From contig NZ_CP108086.1 in assembly GCF_036186745.1 (NCBI RefSeq), positions 6,138,001-6,202,000 of the forward strand: 64,000 nt of DNA. Reading direction: 5' to 3'. The position numbers and the translations under genes were made by a program. The notes beneath the pieces were generated by a model. The model was not told the DNA's origin. It saw only the letters and a program-made list of their open reading frames with translations, and did no database searches. Position 1 is the stretch's first letter, and each line of letters opens with the position of its first letter. Source of the stretch: Microbispora hainanensis. GTDB lineage: Bacteria > Actinomycetota > Actinomycetes > Streptosporangiales > Streptosporangiaceae. Shown one piece after another: positions 45,411 through 59,110 of this stretch.

Positions 45411-45515
45411 CCCCAGGCATCGCGCGGGTCTTGACGATCACGCGCCTCGCGGCCGACACTCACGAGACCGATTCACTCCGCCCCCGTGGTTCACGAGGGT
45501 GGCGTGGGTCTCGAA

Positions 45516-45527
45516 GTTAGCGCTAAC
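45516..45527. promoter_or_regulatory. LacI-type operator upstream of GH43
   Basis: The perfect palindrome GTTAGCGCTAAC lies 38 bp before the GH43 ATG. It is one of four matching sites in the 45-56 kb glycan locus. A possible promoter (TTGACG 45431-45436 with GACACT 45455-45460) is upstream, so a bound repressor would block elongation. Confidence 0.75.
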
Positions 45528-45564
45528 GAGGCCGAGGGGCGCGAGCCGCCGGCCGGGAGAGACG

Positions 45565-47835
45565 ATGCACAGCACCCCCCGACGACGCCTCCCACGCCTC
45601 CCTCGCCTCGCTCTCGCGGCCGCCGCCGCGCTGTCCCTGGTCGCGGGCCCGATCGTCACCCCGGCGCACGCGGCCGGCCCCTACTTCGCCGGTGAGGTGG
45701 ACGACCACGACCACGCGCTGCCGGCGGCCGAGGTGCTCCAGGCCTCCGGCAGCACGGCGGCCGTCAGCGCGGTCACGCTGCCCGAGCTCAAGGTCCCGGC
45801 GATCGTGGACGGCGGGAACGACAGGATCGTCCTGCCGGTGAAGGAGGGCACCGACCTCACCCGGCTCGCGCCCGAGCTCACCCTGGTCCCGGGAGCGAGC
45901 GTCAAACCCGCCTCCGGCACCGCACGCGACCTGTCCGAGCCGGTCACCTACACCGTCACCGGCGGCGACGGCGCGCGGCGGACGTGGACGGTCGAGGCGC
46001 GGGTGATGAAGAGCCCGGTGCTCCCCGGCCTGTACGCCGACCCGAACATCACCGTGTTCGGCGACACGTTCTACATGTATCCGACGACCGACGGCTTCGC
46101 CGGATGGAGCGGCACGCAGTTCCACGCGTTCTCGTCCAAGGACCTGGTCCACTGGACCGACCACGGCGTCGTCCTCGACCTCGGACCCGACGTGACCTGG
46201 GCCGACAACAGCGCCTGGGCCCCGACGATCGCCGAGCGGAACGGCAAGTACTACTTCTACTTCAGCGGCGGCATGGCCACCGGCAACACCGCCAAACACC
46301 TCGGCGTCGCCGTGTCCGACTCGCCGGCGGGGCCGTTCAAAGACGCCCTGGGCAGGCCGCTGGTGGCGGCCGGGACCTACAGCGGCCAGATGATCGACTC
46401 CGACGTGTTCGTCGACGACGACGGCCAGGCGTACCTCTACTGGGGCAACGGCAACTCCTACCAGGTGCCGCTGAACGACGACATGGTGTCGTTCGACCCC
46501 GCCAAGGTGAGGACGTACAAGCCGAGCGGCTACAACGAGGGCTCGTTCGTCTTCAAACGCGGCGGGATCTACTACTTCATGTGGTCGGAGAACGACACGC
46601 GCGACGAGAACTACCAGGTCGCGTACGCCACCGGCGCCTCGCCGCTCGGCCCGTGGACCGAACAGGGCGTGATCCTGCGGAAGGACCTGTCCCTCGGGAT
46701 CAAGGGCACCGGCCACCACTCGGTCGTACGGGTGCCCGGCACCGACGACTGGTACATCGCCTATCACCGCTTCGCCATCCCCGGCGGCGACGGCACCCAC
46801 CGGGAGACCACGATCGACCGGATGGAGTTCGACGCGAACGGCCTGATCGAGAAGGTCGTGCCGACGCTGGAGAGCGTCGATCCGGTGTCGGTCGCGAACG
46901 CCGGGCCGGACGCCGAGGGCCGCGAGGGGTCCCCGATCCGGCTGGCCGGATCGGCCACCGGCGCGGCCAAGTGGAGCTACACGCCCGGCGAGGACGCCGG
47001 CTCCGGCGCGACCTGCTCCTTCTCGGACTCCGGCGCCGCCGAGACCGCCGTCACCTGCGACGACGACGGGACCTACACGGTCACGCTGACCTCCGGCCGC
47101 AGCCGCGACACCGCGAAGGTGACCGTCGCCAACGCCGCCCCCGAGGCCGGGGACGTCGTGACGCCTGCCAAGCCGGTCGAGGCCGGCACGCGCGTGACCC
47201 TCACGGTCCCGGTCACCGACCGGGGGGCGAACGACGTGCTCACCTGCACGGTGGACTGGAAGGACGGGACCACCGCGTCCGGCACGGTCGGCGACGGGAC
47301 CTGCACGGCGCGGCACACCTACAAGAGGCCGGGCGTGAACGAGCCCGTCGTCACCGTCGCCGACGACGACGGCGCGACCACCACCGCGACCGGCCGTCCG
47401 GTGGTCGTGTACGACCGTGGCTCCGGCTTCGTCACCGGCGGCGGCTGGATCGACTCGCCCGCGGGCGCCTACCGCGCCAACCCCGCGCTGACCGGCCGGG
47501 CCACCTTCGGGATCGTGGCCAAGTACGTGAAGCACACGGCGGTGCCGATCGGGGCGACGACGTTCTCGTTCCAGGCCGGGCCCCTGGACTTCCGGTCCAC
47601 GGCGTACGACTGGCTCGTGGTGTCGGGCGGGGAGATCCGCTATCGCGGCATCGGGACGGTCGGCGGCGCGGGGCGCTACGGCTTCGAGGTCGTCGCCCGC
47701 GACGGCGACACCCGGGACGGGGACGGCGTCGACCGCTTCGCCGTCCGGATCTGGGACGAGCGGACCGGCGACGTGATCTACCAGAACGGAGCCGGTGACG
47801 CGGCCAACGGCAGCGTCGTCGTCCACGCGAAGTAA
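45565..47835 (+). CDS. Secreted GH43-family glycosidase with PKD-like C-terminal region
   Basis: 756 residues from ATG 45565 (GGGAGA upstream). A Sec signal peptide spans residues 1-36 (Arg-rich, Ala/Leu core, cut after PAHA). The five-blade GH43 propeller follows: catalytic base Asp159 (LYADPN), pKa-modulating Asp280 (IDSDVF) and acid Glu325 (YNEGSF). After ~residue 440 come Ig/PKD-like beta segments (SVANAGPDAEGREGSPIRLAGSA...) and a final beta domain. GH43 enzymes act on arabinan, arabinoxylan or arabinogalactan outside the cell. The LacI-type operator just upstream and the GH51 gene nearby support arabinose-containing substrates. Confidence 0.9.
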   Translation: MHSTPRRRLPRLPRLALAAAAALSLVAGPIVTPAHAAGPYFAGEVDDHDHALPAAEVLQASGSTAAVSAVTLPELKVPAIVDGGNDRIVLPVKEGTDLTRLAPELTLVPGASVKPASGTARDLSEPVTYTVTGGDGARRTWTVEARVMKSPVLPGLYADPNITVFGDTFYMYPTTDGFAGWSGTQFHAFSSKDLVHWTDHGVVLDLGPDVTWADNSAWAPTIAERNGKYYFYFSGGMATGNTAKHLGVAVSDSPAGPFKDALGRPLVAAGTYSGQMIDSDVFVDDDGQAYLYWGNGNSYQVPLNDDMVSFDPAKVRTYKPSGYNEGSFVFKRGGIYYFMWSENDTRDENYQVAYATGASPLGPWTEQGVILRKDLSLGIKGTGHHSVVRVPGTDDWYIAYHRFAIPGGDGTHRETTIDRMEFDANGLIEKVVPTLESVDPVSVANAGPDAEGREGSPIRLAGSATGAAKWSYTPGEDAGSGATCSFSDSGAAETAVTCDDDGTYTVTLTSGRSRDTAKVTVANAAPEAGDVVTPAKPVEAGTRVTLTVPVTDRGANDVLTCTVDWKDGTTASGTVGDGTCTARHTYKRPGVNEPVVTVADDDGATTTATGRPVVVYDRGSGFVTGGGWIDSPAGAYRANPALTGRATFGIVAKYVKHTAVPIGATTFSFQAGPLDFRSTAYDWLVVSGGEIRYRGIGTVGGAGRYGFEVVARDGDTRDGDGVDRFAVRIWDERTGDVIYQNGAGDAANGSVVVHAK

Positions 47836-47839
47836 CGTC

Positions 47840-48685
47840 CTATGGCGCGACCCGGACGCCGGTGACGGCGAAGCGCTCGACCTCCGCCACGTGGCCGCCG
47901 GTGCTTGCGACGAGGGTGAGCGTGCTGCCCGGGGCCGCCTGGAAGGTCACGGTGGCGGACCAGAGGGCGTCCTCCCCTCCGGCCGAGGCACAGCAGCTCT
48001 CGCCGAGGGGGCGGGCGCTGCCGGTCGAGCGCACCTGCACCCGGATGCTCTCGTCCACTCCGGTGATCGTGCCGCCCACCTTGACGGGGGATGAAACGAG
48101 GGCGCCGTACCGGGGAGTGGTGAGGGAGAAGGTGGTGTCGTCGGTGCCCACCACCTCCCACGGCGCGTCCGGCCCGGTGCCGAACCTGACGAGGTGGACG
48201 ACGGCGGCGATGCCCGGCCGCCCGCCGCCCTCGCCGCGGACGCCGACGGAGACGCGCGCGTCCGCACCGGTCACCGTACGCTCGACCACCTGGTCGACAC
48301 CGGTGAACCCGAGGAACCCCTGGGTGAAGGACAGCGCGGTCCGCTCGGCGTCCAGGTGCCAGGGCTGGTGGCCGCCCGAGCGGTAGCTCTCCTGCCAGTC
48401 CCGCGCCTGTTTCTCCTCGGCGAAGGGCCACAACGGCTGGTAACGGCCCGCCACGAGGGAGCCCGCGGATGGGGTCGGGGTGGCGGCCGGGCCGCTCTGC
48501 AGGGCGGTCGCCGTGCCGGTCGCCGTGCCGGTCGCCGTGCCGGTCGCCGTGCCGGTCCCTGGGCTGGTTCCCGGGCCGGTTCCGGGGGTGGTTCCGCACG
48601 CGCCCGCCGGCAGGCCGAGCGCGGCCAGCACGGCGAGCGCCCACCCGGCCCGGCCCGCCCGGCCGCCTGTCACGCCGCGAGTCAC
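47840..48685 (-). CDS. Secreted or lipid-anchored protein with Gly/Thr linker and Gmad2-like Ig domain
   Basis: 281 residues from GTG 48685 (GGGAG upstream; ATGs at 48727 or 48748 would extend it). A hydrophobic signal (WALAVLAALGLPAGAC) ends at a cysteine, a weak lipobox. Then comes a Gly-Thr-Ala linker made by a 12-bp DNA repeat. The C-terminal ~100 residues (LTTPRYGALVSSPVKVGGTITGVDESIRVQV...) have the Gmad2/spore-germination Ig-like pattern. Probably a cell-surface accessory protein; no enzymatic motif was seen. It converges on the GH43 gene with 4 bp between stops. Confidence 0.7.
   Translation of the reverse strand: MTRGVTGGRAGRAGWALAVLAALGLPAGACGTTPGTGPGTSPGTGTATGTATGTATGTATALQSGPAATPTPSAGSLVAGRYQPLWPFAEEKQARDWQESYRSGGHQPWHLDAERTALSFTQGFLGFTGVDQVVERTVTGADARVSVGVRGEGGGRPGIAAVVHLVRFGTGPDAPWEVVGTDDTTFSLTTPRYGALVSSPVKVGGTITGVDESIRVQVRSTGSARPLGESCCASAGGEDALWSATVTFQAAPGSTLTLVASTGGHVAEVERFAVTGVRVAP
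48507..48554. repeat. Four exact 12-bp tandem copies in the lipoprotein linker
   Basis: The unit GTCGCCGTGCCG is repeated four times and encodes a Gly-Thr-Ala-Thr linker on the minus strand. Copy-number change would alter linker length in frame. Confidence 0.9.
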
Positions 48686-48819
48686 GATGCGCGCTCCCGC
48701 CACCAGAGGTTTCGTTGACGAGAGCATGCCCAGCCCGATGCCGGGCATTCGCGGTGTGCCCGTCGCGCTGGGGGCGATGTCCGGGCGGGCCGTACGCGGA
48801 GGACGCCTACGGTTTCCAT

Positions 48820-49371
48820 GTGAATGTGAAACTCCGCCTTGCGCCTGTAACCCCCGCCAACGTCGAGACGGCTATTGCTGTGAAGGTTCGCCCCGAGCAG
48901 GAGCGCTTCGTCTCGCCTGTGGCGAAGTCACTGGCCGAGGCCTACGTGCATCGGGAAGTGGCGTGGCCGCGCCTCATCCTCGACGGCGACCGTCCGGTGG
49001 GCTTCCTCATGCCTTTCCTGGACATCGACTGGGACGGCAAGGGGATCGACTTCCGATCCGGCTTGTGGCGGCTCAACGTGGCGGCCGGCGAACAGGGGCG
49101 CGGAGTCGGGCGCTTCGCCGTCGAATCCGTGGCCGCCGAAATCAGGCGTCGTGGCGGCACGCAGATGTACGTCACGTGGGAGCCGGGAGAGGGTGGGCCG
49201 GAGGGCTTCTACCGGAAGCTTGGGTTCCAGCTCACAGGTGAGGATAGCGGGGGACAGACGGTCGGGGTTCTGGATCTGACGACCTGCTCGCAGGGCCACG
49301 GCTACAAGACCGCGCGTGGCGGCACCTGCCCCAGGGCCGGGGACGGTATTCCCTGGGGTGGGTCGTCATGA
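48820..49371 (+). CDS. GNAT-family N-acetyltransferase (BltD/SpeG-like)
   Basis: 183 residues from GTG 48820. Acetyl-CoA motif A is RLNVAAGEQGRGVGRFAVESVAAEI; the N-terminus VKLRLAPVTPANVETAIAVKVRPEQERFVSPVAKSLAEAYVH is like spermidine/amine acetyltransferases. After the fold ends (VGVLDLTT) there is a 27-residue tail rich in Gly, Cys and Lys with no known motif. The start is not fixed: GGAGGA is 16 bp away. Substrate unknown; likely an amine. Confidence 0.8.
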   Translation: MNVKLRLAPVTPANVETAIAVKVRPEQERFVSPVAKSLAEAYVHREVAWPRLILDGDRPVGFLMPFLDIDWDGKGIDFRSGLWRLNVAAGEQGRGVGRFAVESVAAEIRRRGGTQMYVTWEPGEGGPEGFYRKLGFQLTGEDSGGQTVGVLDLTTCSQGHGYKTARGGTCPRAGDGIPWGGSS

Positions 49372-49384
49372 CGCCGCCCGGTGA

Positions 49385-49466
49385 CTGTTAGCGATAACAG
49401 CATGCGTCTCAATAGCCGAGTTTTCCGGACCGAAATCTTGACCGAACACCATGCGAACGCTAACAA
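49385..49466 (+). promoter_or_regulatory. Paired LacI-type operators and promoter of GH51
   Basis: CTGTTAGCGATAACAG (49385-49400) and a weaker TGCGAACGCTAACA (49452-49465, 11/14 match to TGTTAGCGCTAACA) are 66 bp apart centre to centre. Between them lies TTGACC (49438-49443), with TAACAA (49461-49466) 17 bp on as -10; the second operator covers the -10. A looping repressor is plausible. Confidence 0.65.
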
Positions 49467-49504
49467 TCGCCCCGCGAGCCCCTGTCCGGTGAAGGAGATC
49501 CCGC

Positions 49505-51013
49505 GTGCTCCAGGCACAACTGACCATCGACCCCGCCCATCGGGTGGCCCCCGTACGGCGCCGCACGTTCGGCACGTTCGTCGAGCACCTCGGCCGCTGT
49601 GTCTACACCGGCATCTACGAGCCGGGCCACCCCACGGCGGACGAGAACGGGTTCCGCGGCGACGTGCTCGCGCTCACCCGCGAGCTGGGCGTGACCACCG
49701 TGCGCTATCCCGGCGGCAACTTCGTCTCCGGCTACCGCTGGGAGGACGGCATCGGCCCGCGCGAGCGGCGCCCCCGGCGGCTCGATCTCGCCTGGCACAG
49801 CACCGAGACCAACGAGATCGGGATCGACGAGTTCATGCGGTGGTCCCGCCTGGCGGGGCTGGAGCCGATGATGGCGGTCAACCTCGGCACCCGTGGCGTG
49901 CAGGAGGCCGTCGACCTGCTCGAATACTGCAACATCCCGTCCGGCACCACTCTGTCGGACCTGCGCATCGCCAACGGCACCAAGGACCCCCACGACATCC
50001 GCATGTGGTGCCTGGGCAACGAGATGGACGGCCCCTGGCAGATCGGGCACAAGACCGCCCACGAGTACGGCAGGATCGCCGCCGAGACCGCCCGGGCCAT
50101 GCGCATGGTCGACCCCAGTCTGGAACTGGTGGCCTGCGGCAGCTCCGGCTCCTCCATGCCGACCTTCGGCACCTGGGAGGCGACCGTCCTGGAGGAGACC
50201 TACGACCTGGTCGACCACATCTCCTGTCACGCCTACTACGAGGAGAAGGACGGCGACCTCGCCGGCTTCCTGGCCTGCGCGAGCGACATGGAGCACTTCA
50301 TCTCCACGGTCGTCTCCACCGCCGACCAGGTGGGGGCCAGGCTCGGCTCCAGCAAGAAGATCTCCGTCTCCTTCGACGAGTGGAACGTCTGGTACCTGAG
50401 CCGCGTCAAGGCGGCCGAGCCCGGGCAGGACTGGCCGGTCGCGCCGCCGCTCCTGGAGGACCACTACCACCTCGCCGACGCCGTGGCCTTCGGCAGCCTG
50501 CTCATCACACTGCTGCGGCACAGCGACCGGGTCGCGGCGGCCTGCCTAGCCCAGCTCGTCAACGTGATCGCGCCCATCATGACCGAGCCCGGCGGCCGGG
50601 CCTGGCGGCAGACCACCTTCCACCCGTTCGCGCAGGCGGCGCGGCTCGCCAAGGGCGACGTCGTACGCGTCGAGCCCGTCTGCCCGACGTACGAGACGGC
50701 CGAGTTCGGCGCGGTGCCCGTGCTCCACGCGGTCGCCACCCGGGACGAGACGGAGACGACGCTGTTCGTGGTGAACAGGTCGACGGACGAGCCGGTGGAG
50801 CTGGAGCTCGACGCGAGGGCGCTGGTCTCGGGCACCGGCGCCGTGCGGATCGCCGAGGCGACGACGCTCACCCACGAGGACGTCTACGCCCGCAACACCG
50901 CCGACGACCCCGATCGGGTGGCGCCCCGCCCCAACACGAACCACCAGAGCGATCCGCTCCGGATCGTGCTGCCGCCGGTCTCCTGGAACGTGATCAGGCT
51001 GACGAGGTCCTGA
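49505..51013 (+). CDS. GH51 alpha-L-arabinofuranosidase
   Basis: 502 residues from GTG with AAGGAGA upstream. The TIM barrel holds the acid/base Glu173 (LGNEMDGPW) and nucleophile Glu292 (SFDEWNVW). Typical family segments are RTFGTFVEHLGRCVYTGIYEPGHP and RYPGGNFVSGYRWEDGIG. No signal peptide, so it removes arabinose from imported oligosaccharides inside the cell. Paired LacI-type operators precede it. It is a likely intracellular partner of the secreted GH43. Confidence 0.95.
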   Translation: MLQAQLTIDPAHRVAPVRRRTFGTFVEHLGRCVYTGIYEPGHPTADENGFRGDVLALTRELGVTTVRYPGGNFVSGYRWEDGIGPRERRPRRLDLAWHSTETNEIGIDEFMRWSRLAGLEPMMAVNLGTRGVQEAVDLLEYCNIPSGTTLSDLRIANGTKDPHDIRMWCLGNEMDGPWQIGHKTAHEYGRIAAETARAMRMVDPSLELVACGSSGSSMPTFGTWEATVLEETYDLVDHISCHAYYEEKDGDLAGFLACASDMEHFISTVVSTADQVGARLGSSKKISVSFDEWNVWYLSRVKAAEPGQDWPVAPPLLEDHYHLADAVAFGSLLITLLRHSDRVAAACLAQLVNVIAPIMTEPGGRAWRQTTFHPFAQAARLAKGDVVRVEPVCPTYETAEFGAVPVLHAVATRDETETTLFVVNRSTDEPVELELDARALVSGTGAVRIAEATTLTHEDVYARNTADDPDRVAPRPNTNHQSDPLRIVLPPVSWNVIRLTRS

Positions 51014-51019
51014 ACTCCT

Positions 51020-51038
51020 CCCGCGCGCGGCGCGCGGG
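51020..51038 (+). terminator. GC hairpin after GH51
   Basis: An 8-bp stem, CCCGCGCG (51020-51027) with CGCGCGGG (51031-51038), closes a CGG loop seven bases after the stop codon. Confidence 0.6.
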
Positions 51039-51056
51039 CGGAAGTCCCTCGGCTTG

Positions 51057-51070
51057 AGGACTTTCGTCTG
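51057..51070 (+). promoter_or_regulatory. Possible DosR-like box upstream of a Usp gene
   Basis: AGGACTTTCGTCTG shares 10 of 14 positions with GGGACTTTCGGCCC, including the whole GGACTTTCG core. It is 96 bp before the Usp start. Weaker than the box at 44140. Confidence 0.35.
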
Positions 51071-51165
51071 CTGCGCCGCGGGCAGCGGAGACGGTGCGAT
51101 GGTGCCCGGGAGGATCAACCCCCGCGCGCGTCCGCGTACCGCTTGAAGCACAGGAGGAGACGTAC

Positions 51166-52041
51166 ATGGCCGGACAGATCGTCGTCGCCGTCGACGGATC
51201 GAGCCCAGCGACGGCGGCACTGGAGTGGGCGGCGGACGACGCGCGGCGCCGGGGGGCCACCTTGAAGATCGTCCACGTGCGCGAGCCGTGGGCGCACGAA
51301 TACCCGTTCCACGCCGTCGAGGGCTTCGCCCAGTCCTACAGCGAGTTCTGCGAAGGCGTGCTCGCGGCGGCCGCCGCCCGCGCCCGGGAGCTCGCCCCCG
51401 GCCTTGAGGTGACCACGGAGCTCGCCGAGGGCACGGTGGTCGAGACCCTGCGCGCCGCATCGGCCGGCGCCGACGCCCTCGTGGTCGGCAGCCGGGGGAT
51501 GGGCGGCTTCTCCGGCCTGATCCTCGGCTCCGTCGGCCTCGGCCTCGCCGGTCACGCGGAGGTCCCCGTCGTCGTGGTACGCAAACCGCACCGGGAGGAA
51601 TACCACGAGGTCGTCGTCGGCTTCGACGGATCCCCGCACTCGGAGGCGGCCCTGGAGTTCGCCTTCGAGGAGGCCCGGGCGCGGCGCGGGCGGGTGCACG
51701 CGGTGTACGCCTGGGAGATGCCGGCGTTCTCCCCCTTCGCCGTCGGCTATGGAACGGCGCTGCAGGAGATCTACGACAACGAGTGCCGGGCGGCGCGGCT
51801 GCGGCTCGCACCGTGGCGCGACAAGCACCCGGACGTCCCGCTGGTCGAGTCGGCGGTCTGCGGCCACCCGGCCCCGGCGCTGGCCGACGCCTCGCTGGTC
51901 GCCGACCTCGTGGTCGTCGGCTCCCGCGGGCTGGGCGGGGTGCGCGGCGCGCTCATCGGCTCGGTCAGCCATGCCGTACTGCACCGCGCGCACTGCCCCG
52001 TCGCGGTCGTACGGCCCCGCGACGGCGAGGGCCGGCAATGA
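51166..52041 (+). CDS. Universal stress protein with tandem Usp domains (second copy)
   Basis: 291 residues with AGGAGGA upstream. Two Usp domains, each with an ATP-type motif: LVVGSRGMGGFSGLILGSVGLGLAGHAEVPVVVVRKPH and LVVVGSRGLGGVRGALIGSVSHAVLHRAHCPVAVVRP. It is related to the Usp at 42602 but not a recent duplicate. Placed between two glycoside hydrolase genes, it shows no link to them except position. Confidence 0.92.
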   Translation: MAGQIVVAVDGSSPATAALEWAADDARRRGATLKIVHVREPWAHEYPFHAVEGFAQSYSEFCEGVLAAAAARARELAPGLEVTTELAEGTVVETLRAASAGADALVVGSRGMGGFSGLILGSVGLGLAGHAEVPVVVVRKPHREEYHEVVVGFDGSPHSEAALEFAFEEARARRGRVHAVYAWEMPAFSPFAVGYGTALQEIYDNECRAARLRLAPWRDKHPDVPLVESAVCGHPAPALADASLVADLVVVGSRGLGGVRGALIGSVSHAVLHRAHCPVAVVRPRDGEGRQ

Positions 52042-52068
52042 AACGCATTCGGTGCGCGGGGATCCGCA

Positions 52069-52095
52069 GGGCGGCAGCAGGATCCGCTGCCGCCC
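52069..52095. terminator. Bidirectional hairpin between convergent Usp and GH95 genes
   Basis: A perfect 10-bp stem, GGGCGGCAGC (52069-52078) with GCTGCCGCCC (52086-52095), encloses a 7-base loop in an 85-bp gap between two stop codons. Confidence 0.75.
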
Positions 52096-52126
52096 CTGGC
52101 ACTCCCTTCCGTCCTGCCCGGCTCGG

Positions 52127-54979
52127 TCACACGGCGATGATCGTCCACTGGTTGTTGGGGCTGCTGTTCGGCGTCCACATGCCGACGGCGGAGCCGGTGG
52201 CGGTGTAGCCCATGCCGTCGAGGGCGGTGCCGGTGCCGCGGTTGACGATCTGATAGCGGCCGTTGCCGAGATCGTTCAGGCGCCACTGCTGGTTGTTGCC
52301 GCCGTTCCAGGGGGCCTGCCTGGCGTTGGCGCCGTTGGCGGAGTTGCCCCAGCTGTCGGCCACCATGCCGTTGGTGCGGTTGACGATCCGATACCAGCCG
52401 CCGCCCAGGTCGACGAGCTGCCACTGGAGGTTGGTGCTGCCGTCCCAGTTCCACTGCTTGAGGTTCGACCCCGAGGCCACGTTGCCGCCGCTGTCGAGCA
52501 CCAGGCCGGTGGCGGCGTTGGCGATCCGCACATAACCGGTGGGGGTGCTGCCGCCGCCGGACCCGGTCAGACGGTAGGTGCGGCCGGCCTGGCCGGGTAG
52601 CGCGATGACGTCGGCCTCGGGTTTGGTGACGGAGACGGCGGCGCCGGTCTCGGCGTCGACCACCTGGTAGGTGCCGGTGAAGCTCCGGTTGCGCACGTTG
52701 ACCGTGCCGGTGCGGTCGAATTTCACGAGGATCTCGGTGGTCCCGTTGGAACTCCAGGTAGCGCTCACGGTGTAGCCGCCGCGGCCCCGCAGGCCCTGCA
52801 CCTTCCCGTTCGGCCACGCCGAGGGCAGCGCGGGCAGCACGTGCAGCTCGCCGGTGTGGCTCTGCAGCAGCATCTCCGCGATGCCAGAGGTGGCGCCGAA
52901 GTTGCCGTCGATCTGGAACGGCGGATGCAGGTCGAACATATTCGGCGCGAGCCGGTCGGTCCTCACCAGGAGCCCGATCAGGTTGCGTGCCCGGTCGCCC
53001 TCCTCCATCCGCGCCCAGTAGTTGATCTTCCAGGCCAGCGACCAGCCGGTGCCGTCGTCGCCGCGCAGTTCGAGGGTCCGCCGCGCGGCGTTGTAGAGCG
53101 TGGGGGTGCCGCGCTTGGTGATCTGGTTGCTGGGGTGCAGGCCGTACAGGTGGGAGATGTGCCGGTGGTTCTGCTCGGTTTCTACCCAGTCGTACAGCCA
53201 CTCCTGGATGTTGCCGCGCGAGCCGACCTTCATCGGAGGAAGCCGGTCCCTGGCGGCGAGGACCTGCGCCCGGAAGCTCGCGTCCGTGCCGAGGACCTCG
53301 CCGGCCTTGGCACAGCCGTTGAACAGGTCGCGCAGGATCTGGTTGTCCATCGTCGGGCCGGCGCACACGCTGACACCCGAGTGGTGGGCCAGCTCCGGGG
53401 AGTTCGAGGGGTTCGTGACCAGATAACCCAGGCTCGGCTCCTGCACGAGCGTGTCGAGGAAGAACTGCGCCGCGCCCTTCATCGCCGGGTAGTTCTGCCG
53501 GAGGAAGTCGACGTCGCCGGTGAACAGGTAGTGGTCCCAGATCATGGTGGCCAGCCACGCGCCGCCGGTCTGCCACATGCCCCAGAACGCGCCGTCGACG
53601 ACCGAGCTGCCGCGCCACGCGTCGGTGTTGTGATGGGTGACCCAGCCGCCGGCGTTGTACTGGACCTGAGCCGTGCGGGCGCCGGTGACCGTGAGGTCGT
53701 TGATCATTCTGAACACCGGCTCGTAGCACTCCGACAGGTTCGTCGTGTCGGCGGGCCAGTAGTTCATCGGCAGATTCGCGTTCAGCGTGTACTTGGAATC
53801 CCACGACGGGCTGAGGGAGTCGTTCCAGATGCCCTGGAGGTTGGCCGGCTGGGTCCCCGGCCGTGAGGAGGAGATCAGCAGGTAGCGGCCGAACTGGAAC
53901 AGCAGCACCGAGAACTGCGGATCATTGGTGTTCGCGTGCTGCGCGATCCGCACGTCCGTCGGCTGGTCGGCCGCCGAGGTGCGGCCGAGGTCGAGTGTGG
54001 TGCGCCCGAACAGCCGCTGGTAGTCGGCGACGTGACGGGCGCGCAGGTCGTCGTACGTCCTGCCGTTGGCGGCGTTGAGATAGCCTCGCGCGATGCCCTG
54101 GTAGTCACCGCTGGTGTCCCTGTAGTTCACGTAGCTGGAGCCGATGGAGATCAGCACGGTCACGCTGTCGGCGTTGCGAACCTGGAGCGTGCCGCCGGAG
54201 CTGCTGACCGTGCCGCCGTTGGCGACGGCCCGGGCCAGCGCCAGGAATCTGACCTTGCCCGCCAGACCTCGCTGGTCGCCGGACACGCCGTCGAGCGCCA
54301 CCGTCGTGCCGTCCGGGCTGGAGCGCGTGGTCCGCTGCGGGCTGTCGAACGTCGCGGAGAACGTGATCGAGCCGCCCCTGTCGGCGGTGAGGCGGATGGC
54401 GATCACCTGGTCCGGCGCGCTCGCGAACACCTCACGCCGGTAGCGCACGCCGTTCTGCAGGTACGTCGTGGTCGTGGTGGCGGTGGTCAGATCCAGGACC
54501 CGGCTGTAGTCCGAGACCCCGCTGCTGCTGCCGAAGGCGAGCCGCAGGTTGCCGACGGTCTGGTACGCCAGCTGGGCCGAGGGGTTGCCCAGCATGTTCT
54601 GGTCGATGAGACTCTGGGCCTGGCTCCACTGGTTCTGGAAGACCAGTTGCCGGATCTGCCCGAGAGCCCCCGCGCCCCTCGTGTTGCTCTGGTCGTACGG
54701 CCCGCCTGCCCAGATGGTGTCCTCGTTGAGCTGTAACCGCTCGGTGTCGACGTTGCCGAACACCATCGCGCCCAGCCGGCCGTTGCCGATCGGTAGTGCG
54801 CGCAGCCAGTCGGTGCCGGCGCTCTCGTCGTACCAGAGGGCCAGGTCGTTGGCGGCGCTCACCTCGGGAGGGACCGCCACCGCGGCCCGGGCGGCCGCCG
54901 TCCACTGGAACGGCGCCAGCGCGGCGCCGGCTCCGACCGCGCCGAATCGCAGCACTTGCCGTCGGGTGAAGTCAGACAA
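52127..54979 (-). CDS. Tat-exported GH95 alpha-L-fucosidase/alpha-L-galactosidase with ricin-type lectin domain
   Basis: 950 residues from a TTG start with GGAGAG 6 bp upstream. The N-terminus [22 protein letters not shown] is a twin-arginine signal. Residues ~40-770 are a GH95 enzyme: [99 protein letters not shown]. Residues ~805-950 are a ricin-type trefoil (three QW repeats). GH95 removes terminal alpha-1,2-L-fucose or alpha-L-galactose from plant xyloglucan or arabinogalactan. A LacI-type operator lies 565 bp upstream. Confidence 0.93.
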
Positions 54980-55016
54980 TTCAGCTCTCCAAGTCCATGG
55001 GGGTCAGTGACACTCG

Positions 55017-55026
55017 GAATCGATTC
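55017..55026. promoter_or_regulatory. GAATCGATTC palindrome upstream of GH95
   Basis: A perfect 10-bp palindrome with flanking TCG...GA symmetry, 38 bp before the GH95 start codon. AATCGATT-centred sites are used by some LacI-family sugar regulators, so a second control site is possible. Confidence 0.4.
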
Positions 55027-56211
55027 GACTGGGGATGGCAGAGGTGAGGGAACCGGAAGGTGACCGACCGGCGCGTGCGCCCGTGCCTCCATGACTTCGG
55101 GCAAAGGGAAGCGCGGAGGCATTCAGCGCTGGACGCCATGCTTGCGGGAAAGGGAGCGCACACCATGAGGGCGTCGCGAACGGCGGCTCTCCGCCCCGCG
55201 CACCACCACCGGACAACGGGAGACCGCCTCGGGGCTCAGTGTGAAAAACCCGGCGAATTGTGTCAAGAGCAGGATTCCGCCGGTTCGGCGTCGCATAAAT
55301 CGCCCCCGATCCCGGATCCGCCTTGCAGCCGGTCTGATCGGGGAACGCAGTCATCGGATGAAAGTTTCATGCGCCGTGCTCGCCCGTGAGTGCCGAGATT
55401 CCCTGATGTGGCCCTTGGGCCGAGTTCCTCGTTTGAGTGTGCGTATCGCGCCACTTGACACCATGCCCACGCCTGGGCTTTGCTCCGCTCCACCACCACC
55501 GGCCGATCTCTCGATGTGGAGGAGGGCGAAGACGAGCTCGAAATGTTAGCGCTAACACGATCTGGCGTGTGCTGGGGCCGGCGCGAATGGCCGGGCGACG
55601 ACCGGCGCATTGGGAACAGGTCCCGCCTGCCCCGAACCCGGCTCGAACGCCTGAGGTAAGGCGCGGGCGGCACGGTCCGCATTCCATTCGAACGCCACCG
55701 GAATCGCATCTCGCGCGGGAAATCCCTGCGCTCGGCTCCGATGTCGCGTTTGCGGTTGGAATGGCGGATTATTCAGCGTTGCTGAATCCTCTCATCTATT
55801 TGCCGGTCGCCGCCTCTCCTGACATGGGAAAGATGTGGATCCCGTCAAGTGAGAGCGTTGTGGCGACCGTTTCGTTTTTGTTCCCAATATTCGTGCCGAT
55901 CTATCGGTAATGGTGCAAACGCCGGTTCTTGTTCGGTATGCCTCGGAGCGAGATCGGCGGTGTGTTCGTCGTGGGCTCCCTCGGCGCGATCCTGGACAGC
56001 CTCGACGGACCACCTCAAACGGGGCATCTCTGTGGCCGCCGCCGTCGCCGTCTTCGTAGCCGCCTTCGCGGTCGTCTCCGGGGTCGTCTCCGGGGTCGCC
56101 TTCAGGGGCGTCGGCCGCATCTCTTGGCGTGGGCTCGCCCGCCCGCGGCGAACCCTGCCGCGACCAGGAAGGTCTCCCTAATCTGTGATCCCAAGAGATT
56201 GCTAGTTGATC
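55027..56211. other. Non-coding stretch upstream of GH95 and HNH copy B
   Basis: About 1.2 kb without a credible gene. Open frames on both strands lack start/ribosome sites and family motifs, and the base composition is less GC-biased than the flanking genes. The only strong element is the LacI-type operator at 55544-55557. Lost genes or a long regulatory region are both possible. Confidence 0.6.
55544..55557. promoter_or_regulatory. LacI-type operator in the gap upstream of GH95
   Basis: TGTTAGCGCTAACA is a perfect 14-bp palindrome, the best of the four sites. It is 565 bp from the GH95 start, unusually distant, with no intervening gene visible. Confidence 0.7.
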
Positions 56212-56275: not shown

Positions 56276-59110
56276 ATGGATCTGTTCGACATCGATACCG
56301 AGCGCACCCCTCATTCGAACACCCCTGACGACGGCTGGTGGGACCGTCTGATCGCCAATTCGCCGCTGTGGTCGTCCGACGGTTCATCCGCCCGCGATCC
56401 CTTCCCGATCATCAACTTCGAGCCCCGGCGGCCCGCCGACGCACCCGGAACCGCAAGCACGGATGCCTCGGAGGCGGACGCCCCAGGCGCCGAGACCACG
56501 GACGTCCCAGGCACCGATACCGACAGCGCAGACGCCACGCGTAGGGATGCCGCCGGTGCGAATGCCGTTGGAATGGACGGCGCTGGCGCGGATACCGCGT
56601 GTGGAGCTGTCGACGGCGCAGAGGCAGACAACGCGGACGCCACGCGTGGGACTGCCACCGGTACGAATGCCGCTGGCATGAGCGGTGCTGGCACGGACAG
56701 CGTTGACGCGAACGCCGCGCGTTGGGCCGCCGACAGTGCGGGATCTGACGCCGATGCCGCCCGTGGAGGGGATGCTGATGGTGCGGCTGCCGCTGGCGCG
56801 GCTGCCGCCGGTGCCGTGCGCGGGGCTTGTGATGGTGCGGCTGCCGCTGGCGCGAATGGCCCTGACGCGGGTGCCGCCCGTGGAGATGCCGCTGGCGCGG
56901 ATGGCGCTGGCTTTGGTGCCGCGCGTGGTGCTGCCGATGGCGCGGGCGCTGCTGGCACGAACGGCACCGGCGCGGATGGTCCTGGCGCGGCCGGCCCGAG
57001 TGCGGGTGCGGGTGCTTCCGACGGTGCGGGTGGGGGTGCTTCCGGCGGTGTGGGTGGGCGTGATCGTGGCCGTGGTCGGGGTCGGGGTGGTGTGCGGTCG
57101 TCGTGGGTGGTGGTGGGGTCGGTTCGTGAGGTGGCCCAAGAGCTGGCGCTGACGCCGCTTCCCGATGACGTGGATGTGTGCCTGGCCGAGGCGGAGGAGT
57201 TGCTGTTCGCCCGGGATCGGATCACCTGCGCGCTGGCCGATCGGGTGGGGCGGGTGCATCGTGCGGGGCAGGCCAGGCAGCATGGGCATGCCTCCACCCG
57301 GTGCTGGTTGCGCACCAGTGGGGGGATGACGGTGGGTGGTGCGGGCCGCCTGCTCACGTTGGGGGCGGAACTGCAGCGCCTCCCCAAGGTGCGGGAGAAG
57401 TTCGCCACGGGTGAGTTGGCGGCGGGGGTGGTGGAGGCCATCTGCGCCGCTGTGGCCGGACTATCGGATGAGCAGGCCGGCCTGGCGGAGCCGATCTTGG
57501 TGGACCTTGCGGGCAAGGCCGGGGCGGCGGAGGTCGCCAAGGCCGGCCGCCATCTGCGGGCGGTGCTGGACCCCGATGGGGAAGAGCGGGATGAGCGGGC
57601 CGATTACGGGCGGCGGTTCCTGCGGGTCCGCCCGGGCAAGGGCGGCGGCGTGGAAGGGGAGTTCTACCTGCCGCGTGAGGCCGGCGCCCGGTTGATGGCG
57701 TTGTTGCAGGCGTACGCCAAGCTGAGGGCGCAGGGGGATGACCGCCCGCTGACGGTACGTCAGGCGGACGCGCTGATCGCCCTGCTGGAGCAGAAGATCG
57801 TCACCGAGCTCCTCGTCGTGGTCAGCGCCGAATCCCTCCCCACCGACCCCGAAACCACCGACCCCACCGCCGACGACCCATACCCCGCCGACCCGGCCAC
57901 CGCCGACGACGTCAGCCACTACTTGGCGGACCTCGGCGACAGCGCCCCCAGCGACTACGCTCCCGACCCCGCCGGAAGCTCCGAGGCCCCGAGCGAGGCT
58001 GTTGCCACCGGCGACTGCGACAGCGACGCCGGAAGCGCCGACGACCCCACCGGGGCCGAGGGCGCCACCTCCGGCGTGATGGGCGACCCCGGCGCTGCGG
58101 GCGGCACCGACTGTCCCGACGCCGACAACACTGGCGCCCCTGCGCCCGCCGAAGCCGACGAGTTCGACACTGCCGAGGCCGAGGCAGGTGCCGGTACGGG
58201 TAGCGATGCCGGTGAGCGGCGGCCCGGCGAGTGCGAGCTGCGCGACACTGCAAGCATCGCCTCCGCCGAGGGCGGAGAGACCGTCAGCACCAGCTCTGCC
58301 GAGCGCCACGAGACCGCGCCCGCCACAGGCGGCGACGGCGACCGCGCTGCGGTCCAGTCTGGAGCACCGCACGCCACGCGGGCCGGGTCAGCATGCCTCG
58401 CCGCCGGTGGCGGGCATTCGCACACAGCACCTTCGGACACAGCGTCTTCAGGCGCGGCGGCTTGGGATGCGCCGCCGTCGGAGGCAGCACCCTCGGAGGC
58501 AGCGCGGCCGGATCCTCCTCCCGAGGACGCCTACGCACGTCACACCCACGCCGGGCCTGGGCCTGCGGGGGACTACCGGCATGGCCAGGACATACCGGGA
58601 ACGCTGGGGACGGCGCTGGGAGCGTCGGCAGGCGGGCCGCCCGGGGTGTTGTCGCTTGGTGCGTCGTTGGGGATGGCGCCGGGGACCGCGCCAGGGTTGT
58701 TGCTGGCGACCGGGCAGGTGCTGCCCGTCTCCAGCGTGCACCGCCTCGCCCGCACCAGCACGTTGGTCCGGATCGTCATGAACGCCGACGGGCAGGTCCT
58801 GGACATGGGCCGCAAGGTCCGCCTGGCGACTCCTGCCCAGCGCCGGGCCATCTTCGCCCGGTATGCCACGTGCTGGGTCGACGGCTGCCCGCTCCCAGCG
58901 ACCATGTGCCAGATCGACCACGCCGACAACTGGAGCACCGGCGGCCTCACCGACCTGAAGCTCCTCGGTCCGGCCTGCCAGTTCCACAACCGCGACCGCT
59001 ACCAGCACCCCGACCGCTACACCCGCCGCAAAGAAGGCGAAGACCGCTGGGCCTTCACCTACCACCGCCTGGGCAGAATCCGGCGCGTGTCAAGCGAATC
59101 TACAACGTAA
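56276..59110 (+). CDS. DUF222 / HNH endonuclease-domain protein (13E12-type), copy B
   Basis: 944 residues. The first ~40 residues (TPDDGWWDRLIANSPLWSSDGSSARDPFPII) match copy A. About 210 residues of Ala/Asp/Gly/Thr-rich degenerate repeats follow (GADxAGA-type), then a DUF222 domain almost identical to copy A. A diverged acidic linker precedes the HNH module (CWVDGCPLPATMCQIDHADNWSTGG, LGPACQFHNRDRYQHP). The N-terminal repeat is absent from copy A, so it is an expansion in this copy or a deletion in the other. Function unknown; nuclease chemistry is inferred from the HNH residues only. Confidence 0.88.
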   Translation: MDLFDIDTERTPHSNTPDDGWWDRLIANSPLWSSDGSSARDPFPIINFEPRRPADAPGTASTDASEADAPGAETTDVPGTDTDSADATRRDAAGANAVGMDGAGADTACGAVDGAEADNADATRGTATGTNAAGMSGAGTDSVDANAARWAADSAGSDADAARGGDADGAAAAGAAAAGAVRGACDGAAAAGANGPDAGAARGDAAGADGAGFGAARGAADGAGAAGTNGTGADGPGAAGPSAGAGASDGAGGGASGGVGGRDRGRGRGRGGVRSSWVVVGSVREVAQELALTPLPDDVDVCLAEAEELLFARDRITCALADRVGRVHRAGQARQHGHASTRCWLRTSGGMTVGGAGRLLTLGAELQRLPKVREKFATGELAAGVVEAICAAVAGLSDEQAGLAEPILVDLAGKAGAAEVAKAGRHLRAVLDPDGEERDERADYGRRFLRVRPGKGGGVEGEFYLPREAGARLMALLQAYAKLRAQGDDRPLTVRQADALIALLEQKIVTELLVVVSAESLPTDPETTDPTADDPYPADPATADDVSHYLADLGDSAPSDYAPDPAGSSEAPSEAVATGDCDSDAGSADDPTGAEGATSGVMGDPGAAGGTDCPDADNTGAPAPAEADEFDTAEAEAGAGTGSDAGERRPGECELRDTASIASAEGGETVSTSSAERHETAPATGGDGDRAAVQSGAPHATRAGSACLAAGGGHSHTAPSDTASSGAAAWDAPPSEAAPSEAARPDPPPEDAYARHTHAGPGPAGDYRHGQDIPGTLGTALGASAGGPPGVLSLGASLGMAPGTAPGLLLATGQVLPVSSVHRLARTSTLVRIVMNADGQVLDMGRKVRLATPAQRRAIFARYATCWVDGCPLPATMCQIDHADNWSTGGLTDLKLLGPACQFHNRDRYQHPDRYTRRKEGEDRWAFTYHRLGRIRRVSSESTT

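Follow-up and report, generated by a model that had tools for sequence, protein, structure and literature searches.

Palindromic operators at ara, sugar-transport and hemicellulase genes of Microbispora hainanensis suggest a regulon of one AraQ-like arabinose repressor

Introduction

Arabinose regulators of the LacI family have been known before, in related bacteria only for the uptake and breakdown of arabinose, as far as the reports cited here extend. Here we describe a set of operator-like palindromes in the actinomycete Microbispora hainanensis, first noticed in a 64-kb stretch of DNA (contig NZ_CP108086.1, positions 6,138,001 to 6,202,000; this whole stretch is called the window) and proposed to be read by a candidate LacI-family repressor, LacI-1. 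Judged from sequence, the closest known system would be AraQ of bifidobacteria, the likeness being one of working. AraQ is a LacI-family protein with predicted control of its own gene and of araBDA and with the consensus TGTGAGCGCTCACA, and its homologs are reported to adjoin ara operons in further actinobacteria (PMC4746261, PMC5928203). A study of 2016 reports that distant AraQ sites were not found in homolog-bearing Actinomycetales genomes (PMC4746261), and a study of 2018 proposed activation for AraQ sites lying upstream of the -35 element (PMC5928203).

The system found here shares with AraQ the LacI family, ara genes as neighbours, sites before araBDA and before the gene of the regulator itself, and a 14-base palindrome with a central CG. 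The two differ in part with regards to operator sequence, as the AraQ consensus TGTGAGCGCTCACA stands against mostly TGTTAGCGCTAACA here, with hybrids carrying a TGTGAGCG half near the ara genes, and with regards to the direction of growth, the bifidobacterial regulon having spread to glycolysis and that of Microbispora to arabinoxylan enzymes. What is new is the probable extension of an AraQ-like regulon to arabinoxylan enzymes, some of whose genes have promoter segments in common that also carry a second element, TGAAANTTTCA. Sites of the CelR type read TGGGAGCGCTCCCA. Near-matches to that sequence are printed in PMC3377646, and CelR and CebR, also of the LacI family, likewise have central-CG palindromes, which lie upstream of numerous hydrolase genes and of an ABC transporter (PMC3377646); their operator differs from that found here, where 66 of 70 half-sites carry T at position 3 and 2 carry G. 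The same report describes a TGAAANTTTCA / GAAA(G/C)TTTC motif in Actinospica and Catenulispora, which in Actinospica lies upstream of cellulase genes and of five genes each for xylanases and GH54 enzymes (PMC3377646); this is the same palindrome as our second element, and its pairing with AraQ-like operators was seen here. BxlR of Streptomyces (PMC12772271) is another LacI-family regulator of hemicellulose genes, having a motif, CGAANNTTTCG, unlike TGTTAGCGCTAACA; the operators described here do not read CGAANNTTTCG, and it is the separate TGAAANTTTCA element that resembles it. Escherichia coli LacI, finally, is among the closest solved relatives of LacI-1, and its half-site TGTGAGCG is present here too. 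In the literature searched we found neither a match to the strings TGTTAGCGCTAACA or GTTAGCGCTAAC nor LacI regulon work on Streptosporangiaceae, though subscription journals may differ in both respects.

Results

Operator-like sites across the genome

The palindromes are very probably operators through which one arabinose repressor of the LacI-1 type acts on ara, transport and hemicellulose genes, and control of the regulon by one repressor is well supported, some of its details less so. The 8.80-Mb chromosome holds 35 copies of TGTTAGCGCTAACA with up to two mismatches, 11 of them exact, against 6 copies of the reversed pattern, none exact; when one mismatch was allowed, the degenerate form TGTKARCGYTMACA gave 38 copies versus one reversed copy in the whole genome. 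A first-pass annotation of the window had called for such a scan, counting equal frequency at random sites as evidence against shared control; instead of such equality, the scan gave the excess over the reversed pattern, with most copies preceding glycoside hydrolase, transporter or ara genes and with one lacI gene preceded by the motif. As judged with a purpose-made gene caller, 33 of the 35 sites were intergenic, one lay within a gene (4206806) and one on the called start of araB (8754020), with four of the six reversed-pattern sites falling within GC3-rich open frames. Among the 70 half-sites, positions 2 (G) and 7 (C) were invariant, A at position 5 was found in 68, position 3 was T in 66 and G in 2 as stated above, and position 4 was T in 60 and G in 9, a uniformity that is partly built in, since likeness to the consensus was the basis on which the sites were picked out. 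Near LacI-1 and araB, the hybrid TGTTAACG/CTCACA is frequent, the 11 exact sites being TGTTAGCG/CTAACA.

The 35 sites make up 31 regions, and 32 of the sites, in 28 regions, lie beside polysaccharide, carbohydrate-binding, sugar-transport, ara or lacI genes. Enzyme families at these 28 regions are GH62 (2), GH43, GH54 (4), GH10 (3), GH5, GH51, GH95 and GH127 together with GH27, where GH54 is the label that we take to apply to PF09206 proteins. The regions further include proteins of esterase-like or GDSL type that carry a CBM2 or a ricin-type domain, three proteins with carbohydrate-binding domains and no catalytic Pfam match (L018, L026, L028), sugar-binding proteins, two lacI genes and araBDA, with the araA, araD and araB models scoring over cut-off at the site-linked ara locus. 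Taken from the whole gene set, the target glycan is most simply arabinoxylan. The first-pass annotation had suggested one repressor for enzymes acting on an arabinose- and fucose/galactose-containing glycan, of which the shared operator is retained here and the glycan is corrected.

Two observations stand beside this set. Palindrome pairs of TGTGAACGTGCACA with TGTGAACGTTCCCA or TGTGAACGCTCCCA, spaced 121-123 bp, were seen at G000:C1 7093510/7093631 and 8671811/8671934 and probably belong to another LacI regulator. A GH43 match at G000:C1:1605073-1605849 has an internal TAG and is perhaps a pseudogene.

The candidate repressor and its relatives

LacI-1, of 339 residues, carries LacI, Peripla_BP_3 and Peripla_BP_1 domains over the Pfam cut-off and is 99% identical to a Microbispora siamensis protein. 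Sites at 8763901 and 8764027 lie upstream of its gene and another at 8762797 between it and the gene of a sugar-binding protein, and the 19-kb stretch holding LacI-1 also encodes L-arabinose isomerase, L-ribulose-5-phosphate 4-epimerase and ribulokinase in addition to sugar ABC genes, the ara genes having a site of their own. Within loci of the best 80 of 573 LacI-1 relatives, to which a few genomes contribute two loci, TGTKARCGYTMACA with up to one mismatch was present within 450 bp upstream of the lacI gene in 55, compared to 0/80 in each of the gene-body and reversed controls, and a site occurred anywhere in 76 loci, again with 0/80 for the reversed pattern. Their 4-kb flanks held ara or sugar-transporter genes in 75 of the 80 (ara in 43), and the recognition residues HQ were common to 78.

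We also asked, across 296 genomes of the class, how often motif and protein are found together. LacI-1 homologs (E ≤ 1e-60, paralogs such as LacI-2 included) were found in 122 of these, and the exact motif in 34, all among the 122 (Fisher 3.6e-15, kinship ignored), the reversed motif being found in 2/296; among genomes of at least 5.0 Mb, counted by hand and again ignoring kinship, the exact motif was present in 31/74 with a homolog versus 0/49 without. As a side observation, LacI-1 relatives 64% and 61% identical to it, with TGTGAGCG-type sites upstream, occur in the myxobacteria Hyalangium (L124) and Sorangium (L149), perhaps through horizontal transfer.

Within the genus, all 15 genomes carried 23-48 sites each, with 0-2 of the reversed pattern, and in the sample of 296 genomes the five genus members had 7-14 exact copies each, all others having 0-5. 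The spread of the regulon therefore looks like a genus trait, unlike the local regulons of other Actinomycetales as reported in PMC4746261. In one further genome (G016, 22 zero-mismatch sites), 16 of 17 regions had a homolog, in some cases by domain only, of a protein that is site-linked in M. hainanensis.

Sites, promoters and genes of the window

With three mismatches to TGTTAGCGCTAACA allowed, the window gave exactly four matches and no fifth copy, against a mean of 0.36 in shuffled sequences (maximum 3; 0/100 shuffles reached 4). These are the same four that the first-pass annotation had placed before GH43, GH51 and GH95 with no further copy, the GH43 site having the 12-base core GTTAGCGCTAAC exact at 45516-45527. 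The absence of a LacI gene from the window likewise held, as none of 37 genomic LacI-type helix-turn-helix genes, obtained by scoring 150 of 198 first-look candidates, falls within it.

The GH43 gene is found in 6 of the 15 genus genomes, and in all six a site lies about 50 bp before the start codon; its letters vary among the orthologs (TGTGAGCGCTAACG, TGTTAACGCTAACA and others) with the position kept in 5/5 other genomes. The protein itself is without most of an N-terminal domain of about 200 residues that is present in 5/5 genus orthologs, the domain end PYFAGEVDD alone being left; in one ortholog scanned, that domain is Laminin_G_3.

For GH51, we compared 14 genes of 80-100% identity (own included), in which TTGACC was kept in 14/14 and GCTAACAAT in 13/14, with the proximal site over threshold in 12 and the distal one in 7. 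Since the weak, three-mismatch site is thus the better conserved one, direct occlusion is the likely mechanism at this gene, and a dimer bound at the proximal site would, through the overlap with the -10 element, compete directly with RNA polymerase. The two sites had been described as 66 bp apart with one over a predicted -10 element, in agreement with the overlap of the proximal site with TAACAA at 49461-49466. Looping between them, as had also been suggested, is unlikely and was rejected as the leading idea. The C-terminal helix of E. coli LacI serves tetramer formation, and LacI-1 must lack it because its alignment to LacI residues 2-330 stops two residues before its end, so that no loop of the E. 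coli LacI type is expected; the distal site was moreover seen in 7/14 genes only, and the operator spacings are 65-67 bp (6.2-6.4 turns) and 99 bp (9.4 turns), assuming 10.5 bp per turn. We also rejected the idea that an operator half-site serves as a general -10 element, as a TTGAC-like -35 element was rightly spaced in only 5 of 74 site-strand pairs (37 sites), including those of GH51, the LacI-1 gene and a GH54 gene in L033; we take a rise at offsets 21-24 in this test for an artefact due to the TTAACA that some sites contain.

At GH95, the perfect operator lies 565 bp before the start codon, with the best promoter found about 290 bp from the operator. This site was poorly conserved, being present within 900 bp upstream in 2 of 12 close orthologs (own included). 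In 6 of 11 other genomes whose upstream DNA was compared, the same operator and leader precede a PETase/cutinase-like CBM2 gene that itself lies before GH95; of the other five, two show a site that precedes a gene encoding ricin-type lectin domains (L239, L241), two have no site, and the sibling G297 is arranged as here. Four further genomes of the genus (G298, G299, G301, G303) have a close cutinase homolog (81-91%) elsewhere, and the best cutinase match in the M. hainanensis genome is 45% identical. On sequence grounds the simplest reading would be that the cutinase gene was deleted here with its operator and promoter left before GH95, an insertion of the cutinase in the other genomes being less likely. 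The proposal of the first-pass annotation that GH43, GH51 and GH95 stand under one repressor can accordingly be kept for GH43 and GH51, while GH95 as an original member is doubted, both for its site in 2/12 orthologs and because the site belongs to the cutinase in six relatives. Whether the operator acts on GH95 today is a related matter. It could be a relic of the lost gene exerting no control, which we regard as a serious possibility though short of an even chance: the poor conservation, the same operator and leader before the cutinase in relatives, and the distance of about 290 bp to the promoter speak for a relic, whereas operator, second palindrome and promoter are intact and face GH95 with no gene between, and the sibling G297 has kept the same operator and leader. 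On the other side of this operator, adjoining it, lies a plus-strand frame of 944 residues (56276-59110, DUF222, weak codon bias), which was not favoured as its target because it is towards GH95 that the conserved leader extends.

Table 1. Positions of the features discussed (window coordinates, except for LacI-1)
Feature	Position	Strand	Remarks
Operator-like palindrome AGTTAGCGCTAACG, GH43	45515..45528		2 mismatches; 50 bp 5' of GH43 start codon
GH43 enzyme, PKD domain, signal peptide (by eye)	45565..47835	+	Pfam
Distal operator-like palindrome TGTTAGCGATAACA, GH51	49386..49399		1 mismatch to TGTTAGCGCTAACA
GH51 promoter TTGACC-17-TAACAA	49438..49466	+	-35 at 49438-49443, -10 at 49461-49466; promoter scan and ortholog alignment
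Proximal operator-like site TGCGAACGCTAACA, GH51	49452..49465		3 mismatches; covers spacer and -10 of GH51 promoter
GH51-type alpha-L-arabinofuranosidase	49505..51013	+	Alpha-L-AF_C domain (Pfam), presumably indicating GH51
GH95 enzyme, ricin-type lectin domains	52127..54979	-	Pfam
Leader homologous to cutinase leader of relatives	55079..55557	-	Cutinase frame absent
Promoter TTGACA-17-CACACT	55238..55266	-	Common to relatives' cutinase leader; resembles GH10 and GH62 promoters of the genome
Second palindrome TGAAAGTTTCA	55359..55369		185 bp from GH95 operator, start to start; sole exact TGAAANTTTCA in window
Perfect operator-like palindrome TGTTAGCGCTAACA, GH95 side	55544..55557		0 mismatches
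LacI-1, candidate repressor gene	G000:C1:8762855-8763871		2.57 Mb from window

Shared promoter segments and a second palindrome

Three GH10 genes, one GH62 gene (L036) and GH95 have the promoter TTGACA-17/18-CA(G/C)ACT at 213-345 bp after the operator, and an esterase in L025 and the gene in L026 have promoters at 185 and 157 bp, respectively. The flanking DNA of these unrelated genes is alike, with 77% over 168 bp between GH10b and GH62b, 77% over 119 bp between GH95 and GH62b and 80% over 117 bp between GH10b and GH95; one shuffled sequence set gave no match in this comparison. Counted over the fetched loci and the window, exact TGAAANTTTCA had eight copies in the 225 kb of regulon loci, seven of them near an operator and one about 1.1 kb away, and one copy in 112 kb of other loci, with no reversed copy in regulon loci, other loci or the window. 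Upstream of 29 site-gene pairs, TGAAANTTTCA with up to two mismatches gave 31 matches versus 3 reversed, the 31 being partly dependent because divergent genes share some of the regions. The distance from TGAAANTTTCA to the nearest operator was 159-274 bp, start to start (window, L016, L019, L021, L030, L031, L034, L038).

Discussion

We propose that the palindromes are operators of one autoregulated, AraQ-like arabinose repressor of the LacI family, here LacI-1. Without arabinose, LacI-1 would occupy the promoters of araBDA, of sugar transporters and of its own gene and thereby block transcription, and it would likewise occupy 23 regions whose proteins degrade polysaccharides or bind carbohydrates. 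Most of these are of the arabinoxylan type, and the window's GH43 and GH51 genes are among them. LacI-1 would then be released by arabinose or by a compound derived from it. Binding and repression by LacI-1, as well as the effector, are what we infer from the sites, their enrichment, gene neighbours, conservation and co-occurrence as seen in the DNA. The repressive mode is suggested by the geometry of the GH51 and LacI-1 sites, and the distant operators may work otherwise.

Several points weigh against this proposal. By the scan rule used, 19 of 35 site-gene pairs have no sigma-70-like promoter, in seven pairs the best promoter lies 157-345 bp beyond the operator, in bad fit to simple repression, and for several operators the start codon is 300-570 bp away. 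Three regions fit poorly, namely a MarR/aldo-keto reductase pair (4035995), the site within a gene (4206806) and 8338093, a two-mismatch site 5' of a Peripla_BP_4 protein. A site preceding the gene itself or its apparent operon was found for only 7 of 13 genomic GH43 genes, so that the set covers hemicellulase genes only in part. No upstream site was found in 25 of the 80 loci with LacI-1 relatives, 16 of these 25 lying between GguAB-like and araB genes and perhaps inside an operon. Neighbour annotation is confined to the 35 sites of the forward pattern, the G016 comparison concerns one genome with no control set, the homolog count of 122 genomes includes paralogs, and the co-occurrence statistics ignore phylogeny.

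These points have to be weighed together with other accounts of the same sites. Chance palindromes are a practically negligible explanation: one of the 35 sites does fall inside coding sequence and another two lack a fitting neighbour, but the excess over the reversed pattern (35 to 6, and 38 to 1 for the degenerate form), the conservation and the gene content all oppose it. A second reader is a more substantial concern, as LacI-2 (G000:C1:8764286-8765281) adjoins LacI-1, is 55% identical to it and is preceded by a weaker, two-mismatch site, and the hybrid sites near LacI-1 and araB differ from the 11 exact sites; LacI-2, alone or with LacI-1, could then act at the hydrolase operators, the ara genes being left to LacI-1. 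We find this unlikely, because the recognition residues differ (GVSAMTVSRVL in LacI-2, GVSHQTVSRVL in LacI-1) and because the motif is widespread before LacI-1-type genes, yet only one of the 80 loci showed a close relative of LacI-2 (69%), with weaker matches (35-50%) in 6 more, all within the 4-kb flanks. Still more improbable is a scheme with no single master repressor, in which the LacI gene neighbouring each cluster reads the nearby site: some sites do have another LacI gene only a few kb away (L016, L017, L029, L034), but the proteins of these four loci differ in the recognition helix while the sites are nearly uniform. Control by one LacI-1-type repressor hence remains our preferred reading.

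A wider scenario, which we put forward tentatively and consider somewhat doubtful, is that the arabinose repressor of Microbispora became the master of arabinoxylan breakdown, that its regulon grew partly by copied cassettes and that two regulators jointly read the signals. Such a cassette would consist of an AraQ-like operator, followed after about 190-220 bp by a TGAAANTTTCA-like palindrome and then by the TTGACA-17/18-CA(G/C)ACT promoter with its leader, its carriers being non-homologous genes: three GH10, one GH62, the cutinase in relatives and, by deletion, GH95. The two regulators would combine arabinose with xylan or cellulose signals, and the AraQ-like protein may act remotely where its operator lies 157-345 bp ahead of the promoter.

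With LacI-1, the arabinoxylan enzymes of Microbispora gain a concrete and testable repressor candidate, and knowledge of this repressor would be useful for the production of xylanases and arabinofuranosidases. Regulon growth here would have taken another direction than that of bifidobacterial AraQ, and the shared promoter segments would let the route of expansion, by promoter copying or by point mutation, be read directly. The missing cutinase gene, if indeed deleted, shows in addition how a gene can come under the operator of another gene by deletion.

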